Part shown: positions 1 to 21,391 of the stretch, in pieces
How the letters are laid out: every line of letters starts with the position of its first letter
Numbering within the stretch: the stretch's first letter is position 1
Source of the DNA: a virus
Length of the DNA stretch: 22,121 nt
Direction: 5' to 3' (one strand)
Virus record (IMG/VR): IMGVR_UViG_3300042090_001157
Coordinates: 1 to 22,121 of that record
Notes under the pieces: model-generated
Databases searched by the model: none
Told to the model about the DNA's origin: nothing
The model's input: the letters and a program-made list of their open reading frames with translations, nothing else
Position numbers and translations under genes: made by a program

Positions 1-74
1 TGGCGACCGGCTGCGGTCTTCAGAATCTGACCAAGCTGGGCGGTCTGTGCTTGGGTGCGGGATAGAATAGTCAT
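1..74 (-). CDS. N terminus of a virion-module gene, cut by the window edge
   Basis: An ATG at 72-74 (minus strand) opens a frame that runs off the left edge; the visible N terminus begins MTILSRTQAQTAQLGQ. A strong ribosome binding site (GGGAGA) lies about 8 nt upstream, and the gap to the preceding split gene is only 15 bp, so the two are probably co-transcribed. The 24 visible residues do not identify the protein. In T4-like late modules the gene after the protease, scaffold and decoration genes is often the major capsid protein, so this is the positional guess. It is an inference from order, not from sequence. Confidence 0.6.
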   Translation of the reverse strand, partial: MTILSRTQAQTAQLGQILKTAAGR

Positions 75-89
75 TGTATTTGTCTCCCT

Positions 90-897
90 TTACAAGAACG
101 AAGCAACGCCAAGCCAGGGCTCGGTGGCAGAGATTGGGTGGGTGCAGATACCCACGACGATGGATCCGGCAGTGTTTGCGGAACCAGGGGTTGCCGTAAA
201 CATTCCAGGACCAACCGAACCACCAACGTTAGCAGTGTAGAGACGCTGACCGTTGAGGGGGGTGCTGCCTGTCACCTGAGAGGCGGGAACCTTGAACTTG
301 GGGAATGCGCGGACCACAGGGGTCTTGCCAGAACCCGAAGGGGTAATGGAAGACGAGAACTGGCCAGCACCCAAGAGCAAGAAGCCGTAGGGGACTTCTG
401 GAGCGGCTCCGGTGAGGGAGGTTGCGCCGTCCAGAGGGTGAACGATGAGATTGAGAACGCCAGGGGTAGTGGCCCCATTGTAAAGAATGCTAACGATGGC
501 TCCAGAATTATAGCCAGCAGCAGTCAATGCAGCATTATCAGTCCCAGGATCACCTGTGAGAGTCAGATTGGGGACGCAAGTTCCGTCATTCTGACCGTAA
601 TATTCGCATTTGTTTCACTTGTGGTTTTCAGACCCACTAGGAAATTTTTCTCTACCACTTCAGTTTTCACTGCCACTACCATTAGTGTTTGTGGTCTGGA
701 CTATGCCTTCATCTTGTTGAAATTTCTTCAAGTTAGATGGGTTATTATAGTCTCTACACGTTCAAATCTCAGCACCGTATGATTTGCTTCGCTCGGCGTT
801 GGCATCAGGGTTACCTGGAAGCGTTCACCGAATTTAAACCTTACGAACGTAATGTTTCCACTGCGCCGACCCGATATATATTAAGTTCGAGATACAT
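90..897 (-). CDS. Intron-split virion protein, probably head decoration type (exon 1 about 897-851, exon 2 about 606-90)
   Basis: The frame ending at 90 runs back through a beta-rich, Gly/Ser/Thr-rich sequence (LTLTGDPGTDNA, VPYGFLLLGAGQF) to a stop at 615-617 with no ATG and no ribosome binding site. The only start in that stretch is a TTG at 527, well inside sequence that reads as coding, so the 5' part of the gene must lie elsewhere. Upstream on the same strand an ATG at 897-895 follows a good AGGAG and opens a short frame (MYLELNIYRVGAVET) that meets a stop after 18 codons. Between them lies a group I intron core. Joining 851 to 606 keeps the frame, gives VETFEYYGQNDG across the junction, and yields 187 residues. 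Small size, beta-rich composition and position after a scaffold-like gene suggest a decoration or other capsid protein. The family is not recognised, and the exact junctions are inferred. Confidence 0.6.
607..850 (-). ncRNA. Group I self-splicing intron, compact, without internal ORF
   Basis: Read on the minus strand, the four conserved core elements occur in order. P-like AAATTCGGTGAAC is at 835-823, Q-like ACGCCGAGCGAAGC at 799-786, R-like GTGTAGAGACTATA at 759-746 and S-like GAAGGCATAGTCC at 710-698. P7 pairs GACTAT (752-747) with ATAGTC (704-699). P8 is TTGAA/TTCAA (731-727 with 721-717). Two P9-region hairpins follow: CACTA/TAGTG (687-683 with 678-674) and CAGT-GAAA-ACTG (672-661); GTGGT/ACCAC (658-654 with 625-621) closes a third. 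A P1 hairpin TTACG-TT-CGTAA spans the proposed 5' splice site, and a possible P10 pairs intron TTCG (847-844) with exon 2 CGAA (606-603). The proposed 3' end is a G at 607. The canonical U-G wobble at the 5' site is not evident, so the 5' end is uncertain by several bases. Confidence 0.75.
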
Positions 898-905
898 TCT
901 CTACT

Positions 906-909
906 CTCC
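906..909 (-). promoter_or_regulatory. Ribosome binding site that supports exon 1 of the split gene
   Basis: GGAG lies 8 nt upstream of the ATG at 897 on the minus strand. It is among the better Shine-Dalgarno matches in the window. The frame it serves is only 18 codons long unless the intron is removed, which is the main reason for placing the gene start here. The AT-rich stretch just upstream (ATATATA) could hold a promoter, but no clear -35/-10 pair is visible. Confidence 0.6.
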
Positions 910-1056
910 TATATATGATTTTTCGCTTCTCCATGGATCAGCCGAGGTGGCGAGATCGCTACAAGATGGAGTCGCTTGTGCATATGAGGAAGGGATATTA
1001 GCAAAACAAAGTTACTTATATAACGTGGTTTTCCAGTATTAGATATAGAGGTTAGA

Positions 1057-1719
1057 ATGACAAGACCACTAGGTATTTACCCATTTCCATATGACACCAG
1101 GGCAGGGGTGTACCAAATTGAAAATAAACTGAGTGGAGTCGTATATATTGGCTCTGCCATTAATTTCTATCGAAGATGGAGGAGACATCACAATGAACTC
1201 ACTAGGGGAGTTCACAGCAATCAGCATCTCCAGAGAGCTTGGGATAAGTATGGGCCTGACTCGTTTATCTGGACTGTGTTGGAAGAAACCAACTGCACCC
1301 GTGAAACACTGCTAAGCCGTGAACAGTACTGGATGGATAGAATAAAAAAAGAGGGGGTATTACTTTACAATACCTGCGTCACTGCTGGTTCCCATCTAGG
1401 TGTAAAACGTTCTGAAAAAACCAGGAAATTAATGTCTGAAATTGCTAAAAAACGAGGAGATAATGGTATTAGACGAGATGAAGAATGGTGCAGGCAAGTG
1501 TCAGAAGCAAATAAGAATAATGTAGAAACTAGATGTGATGCGAAGTTTAGAGAGAAGATGTCAAAACTAAAGATTGGAAATATGTATTGTAAAGGAAAAA
1601 AATGGATCAATAAAAATGGGTGCAGCAAAAGAGTGTCTTTAGAGGAGCTGCCTCTATTCTTGGAGCAGGGTTGGAAGAAGGGGAGAGCCACTATAGTAAT
1701 TCTGCCACCTGAGAAGTAA
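1057..1719 (+). CDS. GIY-YIG homing endonuclease, free-standing
   Basis: Encodes 220 residues with an N-terminal GIY-YIG nuclease domain: GVY at residues 17-19, VYIG at 29-32, the Arg/His helix YRRWRRHH at 38-45, the metal-binding Glu at about 89 (REQYWM) and the YN element near 104-105. A linker with NUMOD3-like stretches (SEKTRK) follows. The C terminus ends in the W-N-G-R...E.L..GW..G element common in phage homing nucleases (KKWINKNG then FLEQGWKKGR). The start is supported by GAGG 7 nt upstream. The gene is on the opposite strand to the virion genes, is AT-richer than they are, and its last 29 bp overlap the 3' end of the minus-strand gene ending at 1691, as expected for an inserted mobile gene. 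It lies 159 bp from the start of the intron-split gene. Its target is unknown; the intron insertion site is an attractive candidate. Confidence 0.9.
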   Translation: MTRPLGIYPFPYDTRAGVYQIENKLSGVVYIGSAINFYRRWRRHHNELTRGVHSNQHLQRAWDKYGPDSFIWTVLEETNCTRETLLSREQYWMDRIKKEGVLLYNTCVTAGSHLGVKRSEKTRKLMSEIAKKRGDNGIRRDEEWCRQVSEANKNNVETRCDAKFREKMSKLKIGNMYCKGKKWINKNGCSKRVSLEELPLFLEQGWKKGRATIVILPPEK

Positions 1720-2152
1720 AAGTTACCAGAGGGAATTCTCTAATTACCTGTAATTTGGTATCACCCTGATAAAAAAAGGAGTCGTATCTACTGGAAAAAG
1801 AATCCATATCATCAAGATTGAGCCCGGTTACTTCTACCCACTTACATTCTTCTGGATGTTCCACATCATCCATGAGAACTTTGTACTTCATATTCATATA
1901 ACTAGCAGTAGGATTAGAATAATCAGGATTAGATTTTTTGATCTTAAATTGCTCGTAAATCCACATCCAATTTCGAACATATTGAGCCGTATAGACTTTA
2001 TTCTGAAAATCAGGGTAATAGGGGTCTGTAAAATAATAAAATTTAGCACTGGAAGCTCGTTGTTTGAGCGATTCCCAAATTTTAAGAGTCATCATTCTTT
2101 TATCCTTGAGAATACGAATAAGATTCCAGGTTGGGTCTTCATTAGTCCACAT
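1691..2152 (-). CDS. Protein of unknown function, 153 residues
   Basis: I chose the ATG at 2152 (MWTNEDPTWN) because the more upstream in-frame ATG at 2170 lies inside the terminator hairpin loop; GAGGGG from the hairpin arm sits about 12 nt upstream. The protein is rich in aromatic residues (KFYYFTDPYYPDF, VRNWMWIYEQF) and has no signal peptide or membrane segment. No family is recognised. It follows a terminator, so it may be transcribed separately from the scaffold-like gene, and its 3' end is overlapped antisense by the GIY-YIG gene. The aromatic-rich, apparently soluble sequence suggests a small folded accessory protein and gives no further clue to its role. Confidence 0.65.
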   Translation of the reverse strand: MWTNEDPTWNLIRILKDKRMMTLKIWESLKQRASSAKFYYFTDPYYPDFQNKVYTAQYVRNWMWIYEQFKIKKSNPDYSNPTASYMNMKYKVLMDDVEHPEECKWVEVTGLNLDDMDSFSSRYDSFFYQGDTKLQVIREFPLVTFTSQVAELL

Positions 2153-2157
2153 AAGAA

Positions 2158-2183
2158 ATCGGCCCCTCATGTAAGGGGCCGAT
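2158..2183 (-). terminator. Hairpin terminator after the scaffold-like gene
   Basis: A perfect 10-bp stem (ATCGGCCCCT with AGGGGCCGAT) closes a 6-nt loop. On the minus strand it is followed by the T-rich TTCTTAT. It lies 77 bp past the stop codon of the gene ending at 2260. The T tract is short, so it could also act as an mRNA 3'-end stabiliser. Confidence 0.65.
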
Positions 2184-4457: not shown

Positions 4458-5123
4458 TTACACCAACATGAACTCGAAGCAAACTCCATCGAAGCCAGCG
4501 TTGAGCACTACATGTGCATATTTAGCACGTACATTCAAAGTTGCGGAAAGTTCCCGCTCCATCCGGATCATAGTTGTAGGCCCGAACTCCGCCTGAGCAA
4601 CTTTTCCGCGAGGGATATTGACCATCAAAATGTCATTATTGGTCTTCACGTTTTCAGCCGACACATACTGCTTGAAGTAGCGGTTGGCAGCCACTCTATT
4701 CGCAATTTTCTTATTGCGATCCGATTCAAAATCATAGGAGTGATTCTTGGCTGTCAGACTACTGTGGTGATGGATCCAATCCTCACCCTGCTCATCTCCA
4801 AGCTCTTCTTTTGTCGTTTCTGACATGATTTTCTTGTCTTTCTGAGGGTAATGGCGTTCGTGTCCGTCCACCATATCTGTTTGGAGCATCCTGGCATTAG
4901 GATCAGATGCTTCCTTCGGATCACCCTTGACGGGGACTTCATCAAAACGGGAGTCAGCGTACGGATTCTCATGCTTAGTCTGGTAGTCTCGGTCATAGGT
5001 GGTACCCACACCGGGTCTAGCCATTTCAGTCAACAGCGCATCTACAGCCTCTTTCCGAACGAGCAAAGAAGCACCCGCCTCTTTATTGGCTGAGGGCGAG
5101 TGCTTCTTGAGTAATTCGTTCAT
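4458..5123 (-). CDS. Protein of unknown function between tube and protease
   Basis: Encodes 221 residues and starts at an ATG that shares its A with the stop of the tail-tube gene (TAATG), which implies translational coupling. The N-terminal half is polar and probably flexible (VGTTYDRDYQTKHENPYADS, HERHYPQKDKK). The C-terminal 70 residues look like a folded beta-rich domain (NDILMVNIPRGKVAQAEFGP, YAHVVLNAGFDGVCF). No motif is recognised. In T4-like genomes small head/core genes lie here, but no specific equivalence can be claimed. Confidence 0.7.
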   Translation of the reverse strand: MNELLKKHSPSANKEAGASLLVRKEAVDALLTEMARPGVGTTYDRDYQTKHENPYADSRFDEVPVKGDPKEASDPNARMLQTDMVDGHERHYPQKDKKIMSETTKEELGDEQGEDWIHHHSSLTAKNHSYDFESDRNKKIANRVAANRYFKQYVSAENVKTNNDILMVNIPRGKVAQAEFGPTTMIRMERELSATLNVRAKYAHVVLNAGFDGVCFEFMLV

Positions 5124-9154: not shown

Positions 9155-12100
9155 TTATAGCTGAGTCGTAACCGTCAAGGTGACAGAGATCCAGAGCAGG
9201 CTGAAGATTGGTTTAACAGTGAAGCTAACATTCAGAGTGGTTGGATCAGAGGGGTCCACTGCGACTACGATGGTGCTGTAGCCTTCGATAACCTGCTCAG
9301 CCACCAGAGAGACTAGAGTGGAGCTAACCACTGAAGTGACAGTATTGATGGTGCTGTTGATGAGCTTACGACCAATGAACTGGTTCAGGCTTGAGCGCAT
9401 CGTCTGGCGAACGTAATCGATCACCAAGCGAGAGGTTGGTTCACGCTTCAAGGGGCTGGAGTTGTCGGTGGTAACCCAGTGGCGGATGATCAGAGCACCT
9501 GGGTTCTCCACTAGGCAAGTCAGGCCGCTTGCAGCCATATTGTCCATGGTGGGGTCGTCGTAGCGGGTGATGAGACCCTGGAATCCGACGATTCCCTGGC
9601 GAGTCAGGGTGGTGGCCACATCGATTGCCGGGGAGACCATCATGCCAGCCATTGCAGCGGCGATCAGGGATCCATCGACCGTGTAGTTGGTGGCCAGACC
9701 GGTGGTGGGGTTGACAAGCTGGAGAATTGCTCCGATGGAAGCGATTCCGATCATGCGCTCACTCTTGAGGCTAGTAGCTAAGCTGATCATGGACGAAGGA
9801 GTGTCGCTGAAGCCGTAGCCGTAGACGCTCATTGCTTCTCCACTGTTGCGTGGGGAGGCTTGAGTCAAGAGGAAGCGGCTCAGGTACTGGATAACCGTTG
9901 GGCTGGTAGTCAGAACCTGGATCATGCCTGCCTTCTGCTCGTTTCCAGGAACTGGAGCGGCCAGAGTGCTGATGGCGTTGATGTAGGTCTGATCGGCGGC
10001 GGTATTCAGGCCAGCCTGTTTGGGAACCTGGAGGCAGGCGAAGATGTTTCCACCATTCTGAGCGAACAAGCTAACTGCCATGGAGAGGCGGTTATCGGGG
10101 GTAGGCTGACCATACTGAGCGTAAGCGTTCCCAACGTTGTCAAAGATCTTCAGAGCAAAGTCTGAAGCCTTCTTTTCGGTCGTGTAGGAGATGTAGTAGT
10201 AATCTCCGACAGAGGGCTCATTTCCAGAGGCGTTGAAGGTAGTCACAACAGCCGTGTTTCCTGCGTTCATTCCGTAGGTGGAGATGACTTCAAGATTCAA
10301 ACCGTAAACGTTCACGGTTGGAATAACGCTAGTGACGCGAGGAGTTTCCTTGCTGGTGGTGAAGGTGAGGGTGTCACCGGGCTCGAAGTGGTAACGGGGG
10401 CTCGGGAGGGACTGGAAGCCATAGAGCGGATCAGCCAGAACATCATCTGGGTTGAGAATGGTGAACTGAATGCCCGTATCGGGGTCCAGGAAGGTCTGAT
10501 TCAGCCAGCCGGTAGCTCCGACCGCATTGGAACCCACATTGGAACTCAGGGGGGTTGTAGCCCCACCAGTGATGCCAAATCCATCCGTGCTGGCCTGGAG
10601 GGAGGTGCGGTTAGAGGTCACGCAGTAGTGAAGAGAGCGAGGAGTAGAAACGGTTGCCGCACCATTGGCGAAGAACTCTGCCGTTCCAGCCGCAGCCGAA
10701 TTGGTGAGATTGGGGGTTCCGACCGTCTCAGCGAGGATAATTCCAGTCGTTGGAGTGGAAGTCGGGTAGGTGGTGAACAGGTTGAGGACATCCTGAAGGG
10801 TGCGAGTGGTCGTATCCAGCTTTTCCGTATAGACGGTCACTGCATTACTGGTTACCGCGATAGCGGCGGAATCTGCCTTGGCCGTGGCTCCGACGAACTG
10901 GATGGAGGCCACAGCGTTGGGGCCGGTGCCGATGTTGGTGGCAACAAATTTCAATCCAACGTTCACGGTGGAGACCAAGCTGGCCTGAACACCAGGGGTG
11001 ATGACGAAAGGAGCATCCCCTTCCTGGAAGGTCACAGTGATGGTTTCATCTGGGCTCTTTCCTCCCACGCCATTCAGATCAGAGAACTTATTGGGCCATA
11101 CGACCCCACCATACTCTGTGAAGGCGGCTTCTGTGACTGAAGAGGCTCCGGAGGCGACGACTGGGAGAACATTCCCCTTTTCATCAGCGATGGAGTAAGT
11201 GCCCTGGCCGGTAATTCCGGGGTTGACCACGGTCAGAGTGAAGGTGTGGTCATTCAGAATGTTGCGGTAGTAAGTTGCGTAGACGTTCTGTCCGATTGGA
11301 GGGGGATTGTAGAGCACAACCGTGGAGGTGGCTCCAACTACCTGAGTGACCGTTACCTCACCCGCCAGAAGGGCTTCCTCTGGGTTGGTTCCGACATACA
11401 CATGAACCAGGGCGGGGTTGTTGGTAACAACGCTCAGGCCGGATCCGTCAGTTGGGACATCCGGAAGGGTGAAGGTGTAGTTCTTGCCAGTGACGGCTCC
11501 CTGGACAGGGCGGAGGAACATGATCTCATCAACCAACGTGTCGGTGATGACCGAAGCGTTGAATGGGGTGTAGCCAGAGGTGGAAGTGCCTGCCATGACT
11601 GAAGCAGAGCCGCCCCACTGGATACGGGCATCAGCGTTAGGAGGAGTCTGAAGAACGTAGTCCACGCCATTGACAAAATCGTTGCGGCTTGGGCCGTAAC
11701 CCACTGCATCAATGCTTACCACGTTAGTGGCAGGAATCATGTCGTAGGTATCCTGATACTTGTTGGTGTAGTAAGAGACAGTGAAAGTCTGACCAGCCAG
11801 AACTGGGGAGGCCATGACGAAGGTGCCGGTCTGGCCATTCAGAGAGGTGATGGTGGCAGGCTGGCCGTTGACCAGAGCCTTCATGTTGAGGGGGTTGGTG
11901 GTGACGACTCCACCGTTGGTCCCATCGACCACAGGGACGAAGGAAGTGGTGAAGACGGTATTGGAGTTGGGGCCTGCTCCGTTCACGAATGGAGCGGAGG
12001 TGACTGCACCCGTCACAGTCTTGGCAGCGACGAGGCTAGAAAGGGGGGCCTGGAGGACGAGGTTACCGGCCAGGGTGGGGATTCCCACGGTGAGGAGGCT

Positions 12101-13030
12101 GGCCAAATCGCCGTAAGTGCGGACCACATAAGCAGTCACAGTGGCGGAGGCGTCCACTTCAACAGTGAAGGTTGCAGTGGAGAAAGTCAGCGTGTCATTT
12201 GCGGTGGTAGTGGTGGAAATACCCGTCACAATCTGGTAAGCACCTGAAACGGTATTGTTGGCAGTTGTGCCAGCAAAACGAACAGCAGTGCCGATCTGAA
12301 CGCCATCAGTTGCCCACGAACCAGAAGCACGTTGAACCGTGTGAGCCGCGAAGGTGAGGGAGCCGGTGGTGCTGATCGTGAGAGCAGCTTCATTCAGTTC
12401 GATAGAGATTGCATCAGTTCCGACACCGCTAATTGCTAGCGCATCAGAGACGGGGGAAGCTGCGGTGAAGGTGAATCCAAGGTCCACATCGTTCCCAAGC
12501 TCACCGGGAAGAGAGAGGGTGAGAGGGAAGTTCGGGTCAGAGGCCCAAGTGGCGTAGGAAGGCACCTGAGCGGCTTCATTCTCATTTGCCACATAGGTGT
12601 CCTTGCGCTTGAAGTAGTAGGTGACGAGAAGTTCTGTCCCGACTGGGTAGACGCTGAAGATTGAGAAAGCTCCGGTCGTGCCATTGAGGCTCGTAACCAC
12701 AACTGGGGTCTGTCCGTCAGAGAGAGTGACGGTGATATCGGTTGGGGTGTTGGTCAAAGTTCCGGTGCCGTTCCCCGTAACGATGGGGGTGTAGGTCAGG
12801 TTGAAATTCAACTGGCCAATCGTCAAAACCGGAATTGTTTCCTGAACAACCAAGTCGTCCGCATAGGCGGAGCTTCCGCGATGCATTTCGGTGTTGATTA
12901 CAGAGAAGGTCTCCTGTCCCTCACCGATGAACACGGGAAGGCGAATATTCCCGTAGGTGATTACTCCAGGATTGCTCACCGTTTCAAACGTGTAAACACC
13001 CGGTGCGGTATATTGTGCGAACAGAGCCAT
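9155..13030 (-). CDS. Contractile tail sheath protein, unusually large (1291 residues)
   Basis: The N terminus MALFAQYTAPGVYTFE carries the YxxPGVY signature of tail sheath proteins. The last 300 residues hold the conserved sheath core (NAISTLAAPVPGNEQKAG, VSPAIDVATTLTRQGIVGFQ, PTSRLVIDYVRQTMRSSLN and the terminal strand region). A GGGAGAG site precedes the ATG. Between the two ends lie inserted beta-sandwich-like modules. Four related ones, at roughly residues 79-155, 358-434, 513-593 and 883-957, each end in a V-x-Y-Y or I-S-Y-T strand followed by a short polar tail (VTYYFKRKDTYV, VSYYTNKYQDTYD, ATYYRNILNDHTF, ISYTTEKKASDF). Typical sheath subunits are about 400-700 residues. The insertions would decorate the outer tail surface. 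The sheath drives contraction and genome injection. Confidence 0.9.
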   Translation of the reverse strand: MALFAQYTAPGVYTFETVSNPGVITYGNIRLPVFIGEGQETFSVINTEMHRGSSAYADDLVVQETIPVLTIGQLNFNLTYTPIVTGNGTGTLTNTPTDITVTLSDGQTPVVVTSLNGTTGAFSIFSVYPVGTELLVTYYFKRKDTYVANENEAAQVPSYATWASDPNFPLTLSLPGELGNDVDLGFTFTAASPVSDALAISGVGTDAISIELNEAALTISTTGSLTFAAHTVQRASGSWATDGVQIGTAVRFAGTTANNTVSGAYQIVTGISTTTTANDTLTFSTATFTVEVDASATVTAYVVRTYGDLASLLTVGIPTLAGNLVLQAPLSSLVAAKTVTGAVTSAPFVNGAGPNSNTVFTTSFVPVVDGTNGGVVTTNPLNMKALVNGQPATITSLNGQTGTFVMASPVLAGQTFTVSYYTNKYQDTYDMIPATNVVSIDAVGYGPSRNDFVNGVDYVLQTPPNADARIQWGGSASVMAGTSTSGYTPFNASVITDTLVDEIMFLRPVQGAVTGKNYTFTLPDVPTDGSGLSVVTNNPALVHVYVGTNPEEALLAGEVTVTQVVGATSTVVLYNPPPIGQNVYATYYRNILNDHTFTLTVVNPGITGQGTYSIADEKGNVLPVVASGASSVTEAAFTEYGGVVWPNKFSDLNGVGGKSPDETITVTFQEGDAPFVITPGVQASLVSTVNVGLKFVATNIGTGPNAVASIQFVGATAKADSAAIAVTSNAVTVYTEKLDTTTRTLQDVLNLFTTYPTSTPTTGIILAETVGTPNLTNSAAAGTAEFFANGAATVSTPRSLHYCVTSNRTSLQASTDGFGITGGATTPLSSNVGSNAVGATGWLNQTFLDPDTGIQFTILNPDDVLADPLYGFQSLPSPRYHFEPGDTLTFTTSKETPRVTSVIPTVNVYGLNLEVISTYGMNAGNTAVVTTFNASGNEPSVGDYYYISYTTEKKASDFALKIFDNVGNAYAQYGQPTPDNRLSMAVSLFAQNGGNIFACLQVPKQAGLNTAADQTYINAISTLAAPVPGNEQKAGMIQVLTTSPTVIQYLSRFLLTQASPRNSGEAMSVYGYGFSDTPSSMISLATSLKSERMIGIASIGAILQLVNPTTGLATNYTVDGSLIAAAMAGMMVSPAIDVATTLTRQGIVGFQGLITRYDDPTMDNMAASGLTCLVENPGALIIRHWVTTDNSSPLKREPTSRLVIDYVRQTMRSSLNQFIGRKLINSTINTVTSVVSSTLVSLVAEQVIEGYSTIVVAVDPSDPTTLNVSFTVKPIFSLLWISVTLTVTTQL

Positions 13031-15570: not shown

Positions 15571-15649
15571 TCATTTTTTGAGGCCGATGCCGATTTGCTT
15601 ATGGGTTATCCCATATTGGTAACCCCCTTTTACTAACATTTCTGCGATT
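15571..15649 (-). pseudogene. Out-of-frame C-terminal tail of the GIY-YIG gene
   Basis: After a run of six C (minus strand, 15655-15650) the annotated frame stops within six codons, but the -1 frame stays open to a TGA at 15571-15573. It encodes IAEMLVKGGYQYGITHKQIG. Joined to the upstream RRWVTNGIENRF, this rebuilds the W-N-G...R...E.L..G...G element that ends the other GIY-YIG protein (KKWINKNG, LEELPLFLEQGWKKGR). One extra C would restore the frame. Sequencing error, a real inactivating indel and programmed slippage are all possible. Confidence 0.65.
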
Positions 15650-16382
15650 GGGGGGTAGCGAATCTATTTTCAATCCCATTGGTTACCCACCTACGACCTT
15701 TACTGCTTTCACTTATTTTGCATCTTTCCTCATCTGAAACGTGACGACCTCGAAGACTCTCACTTATTTTTTTCTTCGTTTCGTCTGAAGGGTGTACACC
15801 CCGCATTCTCTCACTTTTCTTTCTCCGTGTTTCATCAGAATCCACCCGGCCCTGAGCCGCTTCACTATGTTTTCTTCTAGTTTCCTCAGATTGATGCACT
15901 CCGGTGTGCGCGATTCTCATTTTTTGTTTGGATTCTTCTGAATGTGGGGTAGTATGCCGCGCTTGCCCGGTAGCTAAGATTCGGAGTTTTTGAATCGTCT
16001 CATCAGACCGTTTCTTTCCAGAATTTCCTTTACTTATTTTTAATTTATCTTCTTTGGTGCGAGGGCCACGCTTTTGGCCTAGGCACGAACCCGCTGTGGG
16101 GCAAACATTATATAACGTGTAACCCAGATTTCTAAACATGTTCATCCATGCTTGCTCCTGACAGCGCAAGGTAGCATCCAAGGGATTTGTTTCCTCTATT
16201 ACTTCAAATTTAAAATTACTCTTTCCATATTTATTCCAAGAGTGCTGTAAATGAGGGCAGTGGTGCTTATTAGTATTAAGTAAGTAAACATGCTCCTTCC
16301 ATCTTCTTTCATGATAAGCAGAAGAGCCTACATAAACTTCATGTTTAAGTATATTGTAAATACAGTAGACAATGAACCTCAT
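15633..16382 (-). CDS. GIY-YIG homing endonuclease with NUMOD3 repeats, C terminus frameshifted
   Basis: Encodes 249 residues. The nuclease domain has FIVY (3-6), VYVG (16-19), the helix HERRWKEH (24-31), the metal-binding Glu at about 76 (CQEQAWM) and YN at 91-92. It is clearly related to the plus-strand endonuclease: both share EETN, LYN.C.TAGS and LGxKR. From residue 108 on there are about six NUMOD3-type DNA-binding repeats of the form SDETRRKxSExxxGR. The ATG overlaps the TGA of the upstream neck gene (ATGA), with no good ribosome binding site, so it may depend on translational coupling. The gene is AT-richer than its neighbours and sits between two virion genes without disrupting them, typical of a free-standing homing gene. 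The C-terminal motif is out of frame, see 15571-15649, so activity is doubtful. Confidence 0.88.
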   Translation of the reverse strand: MRFIVYCIYNILKHEVYVGSSAYHERRWKEHVYLLNTNKHHCPHLQHSWNKYGKSNFKFEVIEETNPLDATLRCQEQAWMNMFRNLGYTLYNVCPTAGSCLGQKRGPRTKEDKLKISKGNSGKKRSDETIQKLRILATGQARHTTPHSEESKQKMRIAHTGVHQSEETRRKHSEAAQGRVDSDETRRKKSERMRGVHPSDETKKKISESLRGRHVSDEERCKISESSKGRRWVTNGIENRFATPQSQKC

Positions 16383-18649: not shown

Positions 18650-21391
18650 ATGGACTTCTCTGCTCTGAATGACGAACAACGCCTAGCTGTAATACACCCT
18701 ATCGGAACCCCCGCTGCAATCTGTGCGGGGGCGGGGAGTGGCAAAACCACCGTTTTGACAGCCAGAATTAAACATCTTATAGATGATGAGGTATCCCCGA
18801 AGCGGATCCTTGCCCTCACCTTCACCAACAAAGCTGCAAACGAGATCCTGGAACGGGTCGGCATGGCGGCTGAGCCAAATCATCCCTGGATTGGTACGAT
18901 TCACTCATTAGCGTTGAGTGCGATCCGTCGAGCCCCCAAGGGGTTCGGTCTGAATGAAAAAGTCACCCCTCTGGATGAATATGACCAGAAGGAGATGCTG
19001 AAGAAGTTGATCGAAGACCGAGAGTTGGGAGACATACTCAACCCCTACTTGCTCAAGGACAAGCTATCCTATCATCGGGCCAGAGGAGTGGGGTTCCGGG
19101 TCGATTACACCTCTGAGGTGCATCAGAAGGCTCTGGTGGCCCATGCGGGGTATCATGCGATGTCCACTCAGGAGTTAGAAATCTGGCTGGCTTATGAGAA
19201 GCAGAAAACCCATGATTCGGTCGTGGATTTTGATGATATGATTCATTTGTTCGTACGAAGGGGGCAAACAGATGAAAGGTGGCTTCACAATCTTCAACGG
19301 CAGTTCGATTTTGTGCTGATGGATGAGGCCCAGGACACTAACACTTGTCACCCCCCAGGGACAATGATTCGTAAACTAATGGGCATGGATGGGATCAAAG
19401 CAGTGCATGGAGAAGTTCCCATAGAATCCCTTCAAAATGAGGATAGAGTTATTCCTTGGGAGCGGGGACATGGCAAATTAATTATGCATGGATCCCCTAT
19501 CACTATTGGAAAACGTGAGTATAGCGGAGAGCTTATAAATATTACTTATGGGGAGAGAAGCCTTCAAATGACTCCAGATCATCGGGTGTATGTTGCTCTA
19601 AATGATAGTAATAGCTATGCTATCTACTTAATGTGGAGAGCGGAATTTGGTTTTCGAGTTGGGCAATGTTCACTAAGTTATAGGAGATCAGGCTGTGGCC
19701 CTTATGGGGGGTTCGTACGACGAATTCAAGAAGAGAAGGCAGATAAGGCGTGGATTCTAAAAGTCGTAGAAACTAAGCAGGAATCACGAGCATGGGAACA
19801 GATAATCTCATGTCAATATGGAATTCCTATGACTCAATTTGAACCTACAAATGGAGAAAGACACGAAGAATTAATCCGTTTGGTATTTAATGAAGTAACA
19901 GGAGATGGAGTAAGCTGTTTAAGAACTTATGGACGTTTATTTAGCTACCCTTTATATTCAAAAGAAAGTAGTGAAGTAAATGCAATCCATAAACGATGGT
20001 GTGAAACTAGAGCTACTAATTTAATTCCAGGACTAATGTCTCTCCCATCCCCAGAGACATGTAAAAGAATTATCATAGAAAAAGTCGAAAGAATTCCTTA
20101 TTCTGGCCCGGTATATTCCATGGATGTTAAAGACTATCATACTTACGTAGCTAATGGGATTGTAGTAAAAAATTGTCAATGGAGCATGATTAATCTCTTG
20201 TTGCCCCCTGGTAACTTCAATATGCTCTGCGTGGGGGACATCAATCAGTCCATTTACGGATTCAATGGTGCTAACCCCGGCATTCTCTTGAATTACACTA
20301 AAGAATGGCGAGGAGTGCAACCAAAGCTCTACAAACTAGAACGAAATCACCGGTCAGTCCCTGAAATCGTCACCCTGGCGAACAAGGTCCAGACTTTCAT
20401 GACCGACACGATTCCTCTCCGCATGGAATCCCATCGTGGAGGGAAGGATGAGCACGGTCAGATCATTCTCCGGCACTCCAATACCCCCAGAGACTTGGCG
20501 GAATCGATAAGTGTGGAGATTTTGAACAAAACTGCAAAAGTTCAATACAAAGACATCGCCATTCTTGTCCGTGCAGGGTCTCAGGTCCGTGATATTGAGA
20601 CCGAATTGGTAAAGAATCGAATCCCCTACATCATTCGGGGAGCAATGGGGCTGTTGCAGGCTGAAGAAGTCAAGGATATCCTTTCTTATCTCAAAATCGC
20701 ATCTAATCCTCATGATTTCTCAGCCATGCGACGGTCTAGCATGGTGCCAAAGCGTGGTGTTGGGGATGCAGCATTGGATAAGGTGCTTCTGAATGCCAAT
20801 CTGAAGCATGAGGGTAACTTAGTTGAGAGTTTGCGGGGAAGCCAGCTTCAAAAACTGGAAGGGTACCTCAATATTGTCGATGAATTGATGAGACGCTCCC
20901 ATGATCCTTCAGACGCGATTGACTATCTGGTCAGAGCCATCGGGTATGAGTCATATCTGAGGAAAAAATACGAGAAGCACAAGGACAAGATTGAGCAAAA
21001 GCTGAATAATATCGTGCGACTCAAGGAGATGATCAATGCGTTAATGGCCGAAAGGGAGATGACGATTGATGATGTGGTATTCCAGCTAACGATGCAGGAT
21101 CAAAAGGACATCGGTGGAGAAGGAAAAATCGTTATCAGCACCATCCATGCGGCGAAAGGGTTGGAGTGGAAGACTGTTTATGTCGTGGGGCTCTATGACG
21201 GCAGCCTTCCTCACAAATTCTGCACCTCAGACGAAGAAATCAGTGAAGAAAGACGCCTATTTTACGTGGCTTGCACCAGGGCCAAGGATACGTTAGTGCT
21301 TGGGGTGCCAGCAGCAATTGAATTTGCCTATAAAGAACCACAGTGGGTGGCTCCGAGTAGGTTCTTAACTGAGCTAGGGGTGTGCAAATGA
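18650..21391 (+). CDS. UvrD/PcrA-type superfamily 1 DNA helicase containing an intein
   Basis: The precursor is 913 residues; removing the intein (233-508) leaves a 637-residue helicase, close to the size of Rep or UvrD. All SF1A motifs are present: Q motif LNDEQRLAV (6-14), Walker A AGAGSGKTT (26-34), Ia LTFTNKAA, Ib IGTIHSLAL, Walker B DEAQD (225-229), III VGDINQSIYGFNGA, IV LERNHRS, V VISTIHAAKGLEW and VI ERRLFYVACTRAKD. It would unwind DNA 3' to 5' in ATP-dependent phage replication, recombination or repair. The intein splits motif II just after DEAQDTNT, so the helicase should be inactive until splicing restores DEAQDTNTCQW. The flanks are GC-richer than the intein. The start MDFSALNDEQ is set by family alignment; no ribosome binding site is obvious. 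The next gene overlaps by ATGA. Confidence 0.93.
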   Translation: MDFSALNDEQRLAVIHPIGTPAAICAGAGSGKTTVLTARIKHLIDDEVSPKRILALTFTNKAANEILERVGMAAEPNHPWIGTIHSLALSAIRRAPKGFGLNEKVTPLDEYDQKEMLKKLIEDRELGDILNPYLLKDKLSYHRARGVGFRVDYTSEVHQKALVAHAGYHAMSTQELEIWLAYEKQKTHDSVVDFDDMIHLFVRRGQTDERWLHNLQRQFDFVLMDEAQDTNTCHPPGTMIRKLMGMDGIKAVHGEVPIESLQNEDRVIPWERGHGKLIMHGSPITIGKREYSGELINITYGERSLQMTPDHRVYVALNDSNSYAIYLMWRAEFGFRVGQCSLSYRRSGCGPYGGFVRRIQEEKADKAWILKVVETKQESRAWEQIISCQYGIPMTQFEPTNGERHEELIRLVFNEVTGDGVSCLRTYGRLFSYPLYSKESSEVNAIHKRWCETRATNLIPGLMSLPSPETCKRIIIEKVERIPYSGPVYSMDVKDYHTYVANGIVVKNCQWSMINLLLPPGNFNMLCVGDINQSIYGFNGANPGILLNYTKEWRGVQPKLYKLERNHRSVPEIVTLANKVQTFMTDTIPLRMESHRGGKDEHGQIILRHSNTPRDLAESISVEILNKTAKVQYKDIAILVRAGSQVRDIETELVKNRIPYIIRGAMGLLQAEEVKDILSYLKIASNPHDFSAMRRSSMVPKRGVGDAALDKVLLNANLKHEGNLVESLRGSQLQKLEGYLNIVDELMRRSHDPSDAIDYLVRAIGYESYLRKKYEKHKDKIEQKLNNIVRLKEMINALMAEREMTIDDVVFQLTMQDQKDIGGEGKIVISTIHAAKGLEWKTVYVVGLYDGSLPHKFCTSDEEISEERRLFYVACTRAKDTLVLGVPAAIEFAYKEPQWVAPSRFLTELGVCK
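19346..20173 (+). mobile_element. Intein in helicase motif II, with a putative GIY-YIG-like nuclease domain
   Basis: The intein spans residues 233-508, 276 in all. Block A starts with the nucleophile Cys233 (CHPPGTM). Block B is LQMTPDHRVYVAL, with the TxxH Thr308 and His311. Block F is YSMDVKDYHTYVANGIVV, followed by block G Lys507-Asn508 and the +1 nucleophile Cys509. The usual penultimate His is Lys here. Between the splicing halves, no LAGLIDADG or HNH motif is seen. Instead residues about 323-397 show YLM (326-328), RVG (336-338), an Arg-rich helix, a strand AWILKV and a Glu (383, AWEQ), in the order of the GIY-YIG fold. The DNA is AT-rich with many AGA, ATA and TTA codons, unlike the helicase. 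Splicing is strongly expected; nuclease activity is a guess. Confidence 0.92.

Follow-up and report, generated by a model that had tools for sequence, protein, structure and literature searches.

On the minus strand of the viral DNA analysed here (IMG/VR record IMGVR_UViG_3300042090_001157, 22,121 nt; hereafter the window), an orphan reading frame ends at 90, and an ATG at 897 is preceded by AGGAG at 910-906. The question is whether the two belong to one gene interrupted by an intron, where the RNA would be cut, and how the intron came to lie there. The original prediction, made from the letters alone, named both elements, and they are present in the sequence. Its central claim, that a capsid-region gene is split by a compact group I intron, stood; its exact boundaries did not. 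Our preferred explanation, which we regard as very likely, is that an ORF-less self-splicing group I intron from a tRNA-gene clade interrupts a probable decoration protein gene and takes part in collaborative homing with a GIY-YIG endonuclease encoded next to it. The sequence-based part of this explanation comprises the predicted splice sites, the conserved core, the empty site in relatives and the block exchange. The companion endonuclease, the block exchange and the tRNA-intron ancestry go beyond the original prediction.

Table 1. Features at the split gene and its upstream flank (window coordinates)
Feature	Position	Strand	Remarks
Start of major capsid protein gene, runs off the window	1..74	-	next gene after the split gene
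Exon 2 including stop	90..606	-	predicted spliced product 176 aa, probable capsid decoration protein
Predicted group I intron	607..883	-	277 nt, without endonuclease ORF; U at -1, last base G; RF00028, intronless homologues, covariation
P9 (695-691 with 658-654), inner hairpin (672-669 with 664-661)	654..695	-	pairing kept across the alignment; double changes in the inner hairpin, none in P9
P7 (752-748 with 703-699), P8 (739-735 with 714-710)	699..752	-	covariation
P3 (840-837 with 743-740) enclosing P4 (831-826 with 798-793) and P6 (786-781 with 768-763)	740..840	-	hand pairing; covariation in P4 and P6
P2 hairpin, GAAA loop (865-859 with 854-848)	848..865	-	covariation
P1, exon ACU and intron U (886-883) with guide GGGU (872-869)	869..886	-	U-G wobble at the splice site
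Exon 1, ATGTATCTCGAACT	884..897	-	14 nt; MYLE and 2 nt of codon 5; from intronless homologues
Shine-Dalgarno AGGAG	906-910	-	ahead of the ATG at 897
Leader hairpin	936..957	-	ends 38 nt before the start codon; conserved
Free-standing GIY-YIG homing endonuclease gene, 220 aa	1057..1719	+	divergent, 159 bp from the start codon
159-aa ORF in the exchanged block, left part	1691..2170	-	block limits; homologous ORFs in L003 and L009

Splice junctions and host gene

Homologues of the split gene were collected from 25 viral-contig loci (exon-2 search), five contigs (alignment search) and Tunturi_5 (tblastn), which gave 31 records. The gene start is included in 29 of these; L013 and L026, whose sequences begin within the gene, were not counted for presence or absence. 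Eleven of the 29 informative records carry the intron (L002-L010, L017 and L018), and 18 are intronless (L011, L012, L014-L016, L019-L025, L037, L054, L055, L060, L063 and L066). All intron-bearing alleles come from metagenome contigs, and Tunturi_5, a phage of Tunturiibacter and the sole annotated phage relative found, is without the intron. When the intron was sought in annotated phages, only partial matches at 22% coverage were obtained, in three records (Kolpuevirus sp. and two uncultured phage cr111_1 entries).

The close intronless alleles (L011, L012, L014-L016, L022 and L025) read as uninterrupted MYLELEYYGQND in the homologue comparison. The unsplit start of L011 is ATG-TAT-CTT-GAG-TTA/GAG-TAC, and L022 provides a matching empty site, ATGTATCTCGAACT/CGAATATTACGG. 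Because the intronless homologues read MYLEL-EYYGQND at the N terminus, exon 1 is set at 14 nt, the intron at 277 nt and the protein at 176 aa, with CGAACT-CGAATATT as the predicted spliced junction. The 3' end originally placed at 607 is exactly the last intron base. The 5' end moves to 883 from the earlier 850, and the split falls after four codons and 2 nt instead of about 15 codons; from the corrected junction the product has 176 residues, not 187. The N terminus of homologues had been expected to resemble NIYRVGAVET followed by EYYGQND, and the second motif was found as expected, whereas the first turned out to be intron sequence. The intron is 277 nt long in the window and L002, 276 in L009, 281 in L003 and 275 in L017, and the U at -1 and the terminal G are kept in all four virion-gene alleles examined (the window, as L002, and L009, L003 and L017).

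The split gene sits in the head module, immediately ahead of the major capsid gene. The full copy of the latter in L002 matches the PHROG major head protein (E 2.8e-42), and its product is 67% identical to the protein annotated 'major head protein' in Tunturi_5. Upstream of the split gene there are a head-protease match (PHROG) and an acidic ORF, by our own label scaffold-like, which is related to a Tunturi_5 ORF at the equivalent place. The split protein had no Pfam or PHROG family at E≤0.1, and its Tunturi_5 homologue is annotated 'tail fiber protein'. A structure model was built from the intronless L012 protein (pLDDT 70.6), and 12 of its 13 best VIA rows were phage capsid or head entries (phiCD508, with Z 6.8 on 58 residues, BB1, FCWL1, T1, phi29 gp8.5, XM1, Sf11, SHP and Pam3), all of them weak at Z no higher than 6.8 on 58 residues. 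Foldseek alone gave no match with E under 0.001 for this model, so the reading is built on gene order and the weak fold rows, and these suggest that the product is probably a capsid head-decoration protein. The window also encodes a tail sheath protein of 1291 aa (9155-13030, minus strand), in which the recognised sheath part is approximately the last quarter (residues 961-1288).

Neighbouring endonuclease gene and exchanged block

The GIY-YIG protein matches PF01541 (44.5 bits) and PHROG homing endonucleases, and the ORF-less intron adjoins its free-standing gene as in collaborative homing pairs. In the mechanism that we propose, splicing would begin with a guanosine attacking after the U at -1; P10 would help exon ligation, and release after the terminal G would yield the 176-aa protein. 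At the DNA level, the free-standing enzyme would cut intronless alleles at or near the insertion site, repair would copy the enzyme gene and the intron together, and the intron, by splitting the enzyme's target, would protect the donor. There is an alternative, unlikely yet credible, in which the intron is real and spliced, the GIY-YIG gene encodes an independent intergenic homing endonuclease, and the exchange described below is ordinary homologous recombination or follows from a cut elsewhere in the block.

The distribution of the gene bears on both readings. A GIY-YIG homologue lies just upstream in 11 of 11 intron-bearing contigs (the L010 copy is cut by the contig end) and at the same place in 3 of the 18 intronless records (L011, L012 and L025), counts that are not independent because many contigs are near copies. 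The imbalance argues against an independent enzyme; the three intronless records, in which the enzyme gene and the intron are seen to be separable, speak for one, and so does an apparent remnant without an intron in L054 (2734-2796, plus strand; identical in L055 and L060). By eye this remnant has 21 codons like the start of the window enzyme, then a C-terminus-like stretch, and it occupies the same intergenic spot in the opposite orientation. Between the acidic ORF and the GIY-YIG gene, an ORF of about 150-160 aa is found in the window, L003 and L009 and is absent there in L012; the 159-aa ORF of the window has only a weak PHROG match (E 0.081). Two other elements were noted in the window. 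A second GIY-YIG gene, with a NUMOD3 motif, lies at 15633-16382 (minus strand), its product 43% identical to the first over 126 residues. The UvrD-like helicase gene at 18650-21391 (plus strand) contains an apparent intein after DEAQDTNT, which by eye begins CHPPGT and ends VVKN before CQW; its Intein_splicing match is partial and below cut-off.

Natural alleles were compared in coordinates relative to exon 2, which begins at 0. Contigs L003 and L008 are identical from -1452 to +92 (1,545 bp) and differ by about 10% on both sides of this block: at 121 of the 1,070 positions between -2600 and -1530, at another 6 between -1530 and -1453, and at 43 in the remainder of the gene. Against L003, L006 and L007 show the same block limits as L008, and in this region L004, L005 and L018 are nearly the same as L003. 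A different combination is seen with L002, which is 94% identical to L003 in the gene, 93% downstream and 71% in the intron; the values against L009 are 78, 83 and 97%, respectively. The gene tree joined L002 with L003 and L008 (100/100) and rejected L002 with L009 (p 0.0004), and the intron tree rejected the window with L003 at a modest p of 0.033, both tree-test clades having been named after the identities had been seen. Co-transfer is well supported by these comparisons, in which the GIY-YIG gene, leader, exon 1 and intron appear to have been exchanged as one block.

The ends of the block weigh differently. On the left it extends beyond the enzyme gene and through the 159-aa ORF, and L005 differs from L003 only left of -1361 within the compared stretch, so the left ends vary separately; both points agree with an independent enzyme. 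On the right, the change-overs fall at +93 (L003/L008), at +6, the last clustered difference (L002/L003), and at +46, with one earlier at +12 (L002/L009). All three thus lie within 93 bp beyond the insertion site, where repair of a cut at that site would put them. The recombination version instead places the breakpoint in the conserved start of the split gene, where conservation could favour crossovers. We infer the cut by the GIY-YIG enzyme at the insertion site from these exchange boundaries and from the F-CphI precedent (PMC6083498), and keep collaborative homing as the preferred reading. Enzyme-only, empty and enzyme-plus-intron alleles of one gene form a natural data set for collaborative homing, and exchange boundaries near the insertion site make this proposed route to mobile introns directly testable.

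Ribozyme core, reading frame and ancestry

The match to RF00028 (676-899, 32.1 bits) had an E value of 1.9e-8 in one scan and 2.3e-6 when the short stretch was run against all of Rfam. The Infernal check proposed in the original prediction therefore returned a group I match, with a score short of Rfam's gathering threshold of 50, a threshold that the introns of L003 and L017 also miss. The intron was absent from the whole-window Rfam scan at E≤1 and was recovered by the short-stretch scan. The whole-window scan also listed a Ref64 match at 5067-5112, below its cut-off. As anticipated, the ORF list gives a truncated frame of 145 aa with a TTG start. Split genes may be under-counted in phages, because the ORF list shows only such a frame and the Rfam cut-off misses the intron. 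The low score and the 145-aa frame would also suit a dead or degenerate intron, with a gene that is defective or is translated from the downstream TTG (527), a reading that we consider highly improbable on three grounds: compensatory changes that keep the core pairings, codons upstream of the TTG (EYYGQND and onward) that are conserved as protein, and the U at -1 and terminal G retained by four distinct alleles.

The pairings were examined in an alignment of 88 distinct rows, consisting of the window intron, counted as a row of its own, and its relatives. Paired cells amounted to 523 of 528 in P4, 439 of 440 in P7, 439 of 491 in P2, 340 of 385 in P6, 365 of 429 in P8, 427 of 435 in P9 and 347 of 348 in the inner P9 hairpin; for the first five of these, a slid-register control, with shifts of 1-3 columns, left 8-53% paired. 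Double changes were seen in P2 (7 of 7 pairs changed on both sides), P4, P6, P7, P8 and the inner P9 hairpin, and none in P9. P5a pairs weakly (44/83 cells). In the automatic alignment P3 was in register in 183 of 343 cells (53%) and reached 95% once its 3' strand was slid by one column; we attribute this to a shift in the alignment, since P3 could be paired by hand in six of six introns examined. Each of the three intron types also accommodates P1 (ACU/U with GGGU or AGGU) and P10 when paired by hand. Exon bases contribute only three pairs to P1, and the guide bases that follow can pair with exon 2 in a P10 of just 2-5 bp. A plain MFE fold was unexceptional (z -1.32; 18 of 200 shuffles fold as well). 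The sub-threshold RF00028 match and, above all, the pairings kept across the 88 rows bear out the group I core proposed for the minus strand, and the stretch 883-607 has the core and splice sites predicted for a self-splicing group I intron.

The reading frame points the same way. Differing codons at the start of exon 2 are 6 synonymous and 2 non-synonymous between L002 and L009, and 2 and 0 between L002 and L003; judged by these pairs, the first part of exon 2, ahead of the TTG, is conserved as protein. The divergent L017 speaks against this, with ratios of 3 to 5 (L002), 3 to 6 (L009) and 5 to 5 (L003), in which non-synonymous codons equal or outnumber synonymous ones. Four codons ahead of exon 2 the window type has an in-frame stop, after which the first start codon is the TTG 26 codons in; because of this stop, only splicing would allow the leading residues of exon 2 to be read from the start at 897. 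From the start codon the unspliced frame runs into the intron for 55 codons in L003 and L017 and for 18 in the window and L009, and as a coding signal this open frame was considered and left as chance. The junction of the original prediction (intron 850-607, 187-aa product with NIYRVGAVET), where the frames do fuse in phase and the 18 unspliced codons run on from the start, is barely credible and was rejected on the intronless homologues: its NIYRVGAVET residues occur in 0 of the 18 intronless records, the exon would have to contain the P1 guide together with most of P2, and the read-through residues vary between intron types while MYLEL is nearly constant (MFLEL in L017).

A second conserved structure lies in the leader, where a two-part hairpin of 7 bp is present in alleles with and without the intron. 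In 15 rows (the window and 14 homologue loci) 104 of 105 cells are paired and 4 of 7 pairs are doubly changed, the rows having been found by a pairing-demanding scan, which favours paired rows. L037 lacked a matching hairpin and was dropped; an initial count without L012 used 14 rows, and the one given here, with L012, used 15. In a shuffle control, 22 of 500 reached the count of doubly changed pairs and 0 of 500 the count of doubly changed cells. The scan of 17 sequences gave six further, chance-like matches elsewhere, and the hairpin had no Rfam match in the short-stretch scan.

Relatives of the intron were sought with a 15-base core pattern, which found at least 120 viral stretches, and a longer pattern, which found 18 in bacterial genomes. 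A profile from six introns, four in virion genes and two in tRNA genes, matched 102 of the 120 viral stretches listed and 18 of 18 bacterial ones, in a sample biased by the core patterns and by the two tRNA introns in the profile. ARAGORN called a tRNA with an intron at 88 of the 122 matching loci listed, L029 and L031 included, and at 0 of 114 controls; among the viral loci in the matches listed, 75 of 104 span a tRNA call. In near-full-length loci, bacterial ones included, the most frequent tRNAs are Leu, Arg and Tyr. The four virion-gene introns tried gave no tRNA call. Clade members in tRNA genes of viral contigs lie in L029 (7423-7686, minus strand), in L031 (8801-9061, plus strand) and among L067-L186. 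In a 96-row tree the four virion-gene introns formed one clade (99/97, from a bootstrap that had not settled), and its neighbours were the phage introns L115, L121, L109, L116 and L173, all within tRNA calls. By sequence and tree, then, the ribozyme clade is otherwise found mainly in tRNA genes, and in the simplest reading a tRNA-type intron would have entered the split gene once, then diverged and spread. Subgroup IC3 is the class of such tRNA introns, and by kinship the present one is a candidate IC3-like intron.

The position of the insertion invites a further, speculative reading. The first base of the AUG and the 5' splice site are 14 nt apart, and the footprint of an initiating ribosome is expected to cover the latter. 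With a tRNA-type ribozyme beside the start codon of a protein gene, splicing and translation should compete; because P1 uses exon 1 and the site is within the ribosome footprint, initiation on unspliced RNA and splicing would be mutually exclusive. That the intron gates translation of the decoration protein, so that a late capsid gene would have a tRNA-derived ribozyme as its splice-before-start switch, nevertheless seems to us a long shot.

Comparison with known systems

Introns in capsid genes are known from the major capsid gene of LittleE and the capsid subunit gene of Tuc2009 (PMC3706429), and group I introns in core genes, including that of the major capsid protein (MCP), are typical of Delta-group crAss-like phages (PMC7886860). 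The statement in the original prediction that one in a capsid-type gene would be unusual was thus too strong (PMC3706429; PMC7886860). Introns have also been reported in Bastillevirinae (PMC11878797) and in Jug phages (PMC12363816). Collaborative homing has been described (PMC10448857; PMC6083498). As of 2014, phage introns were all in protein genes in the account of one review (PMC3984707), and tRNA introns of unstated class have been reported in Lak phages (PMC6784885). In the open-licence literature searched, we found no tRNA-type intron reported next to the start codon of a protein gene, and for a group IC3 intron in a protein-coding gene the search gave only the 2014 review (PMC3984707). 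The element itself is of an ordinary class in an informative setting, and the find is largely familiar in kind.

LittleE is similar in having a probable group I intron in a capsid gene, with U before the 5' site and a 3' G, absent from relatives. In contrast to its 819-bp insertion with an internal endonuclease ORF, the window intron is 277 nt long and ORF-less, with the enzyme gene outside, and its host gene, a different one, is interrupted 14 nt from the start codon (PMC3706429). The MCP introns of Delta- and Zeta-group crAss-like phages are likewise group I introns that interrupt core capsid genes in metagenomic phages; they were found mainly via intron-encoded endonuclease domains, a route that the window intron, without such a domain, escapes (PMC7886860).

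Cyanophage S-PM2 likewise has a free-standing endonuclease gene, that of F-CphI, beside its psbA intron. That enzyme carries an EndoVII-type motif and was shown to cleave the intronless gene, whereas the window pair has a divergent GIY-YIG gene and is known from sequence, with block exchange visible in natural alleles (PMC6083498). In ICP1, the gene of T5orf172, a GIY-YIG-related enzyme, adjoins exon 1 of an intron-bearing terminase gene; both the host gene and the enzyme subfamily differ from those of the window (PMC10448857). A further relation is to group I introns of tRNA genes (PMC3984707; for tRNA introns of Lak phages, PMC6784885). The bacterial and phage tRNA introns compared here, which do not include the Lak ones, belong by sequence and tree to the same ribozyme clade as the window intron; they lie in tRNA genes, and the window intron lies in a protein gene. 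Capsid introns and collaborative homing being already known, the new part is a tRNA-type intron in a capsid-region gene, 14 nt after the start codon.
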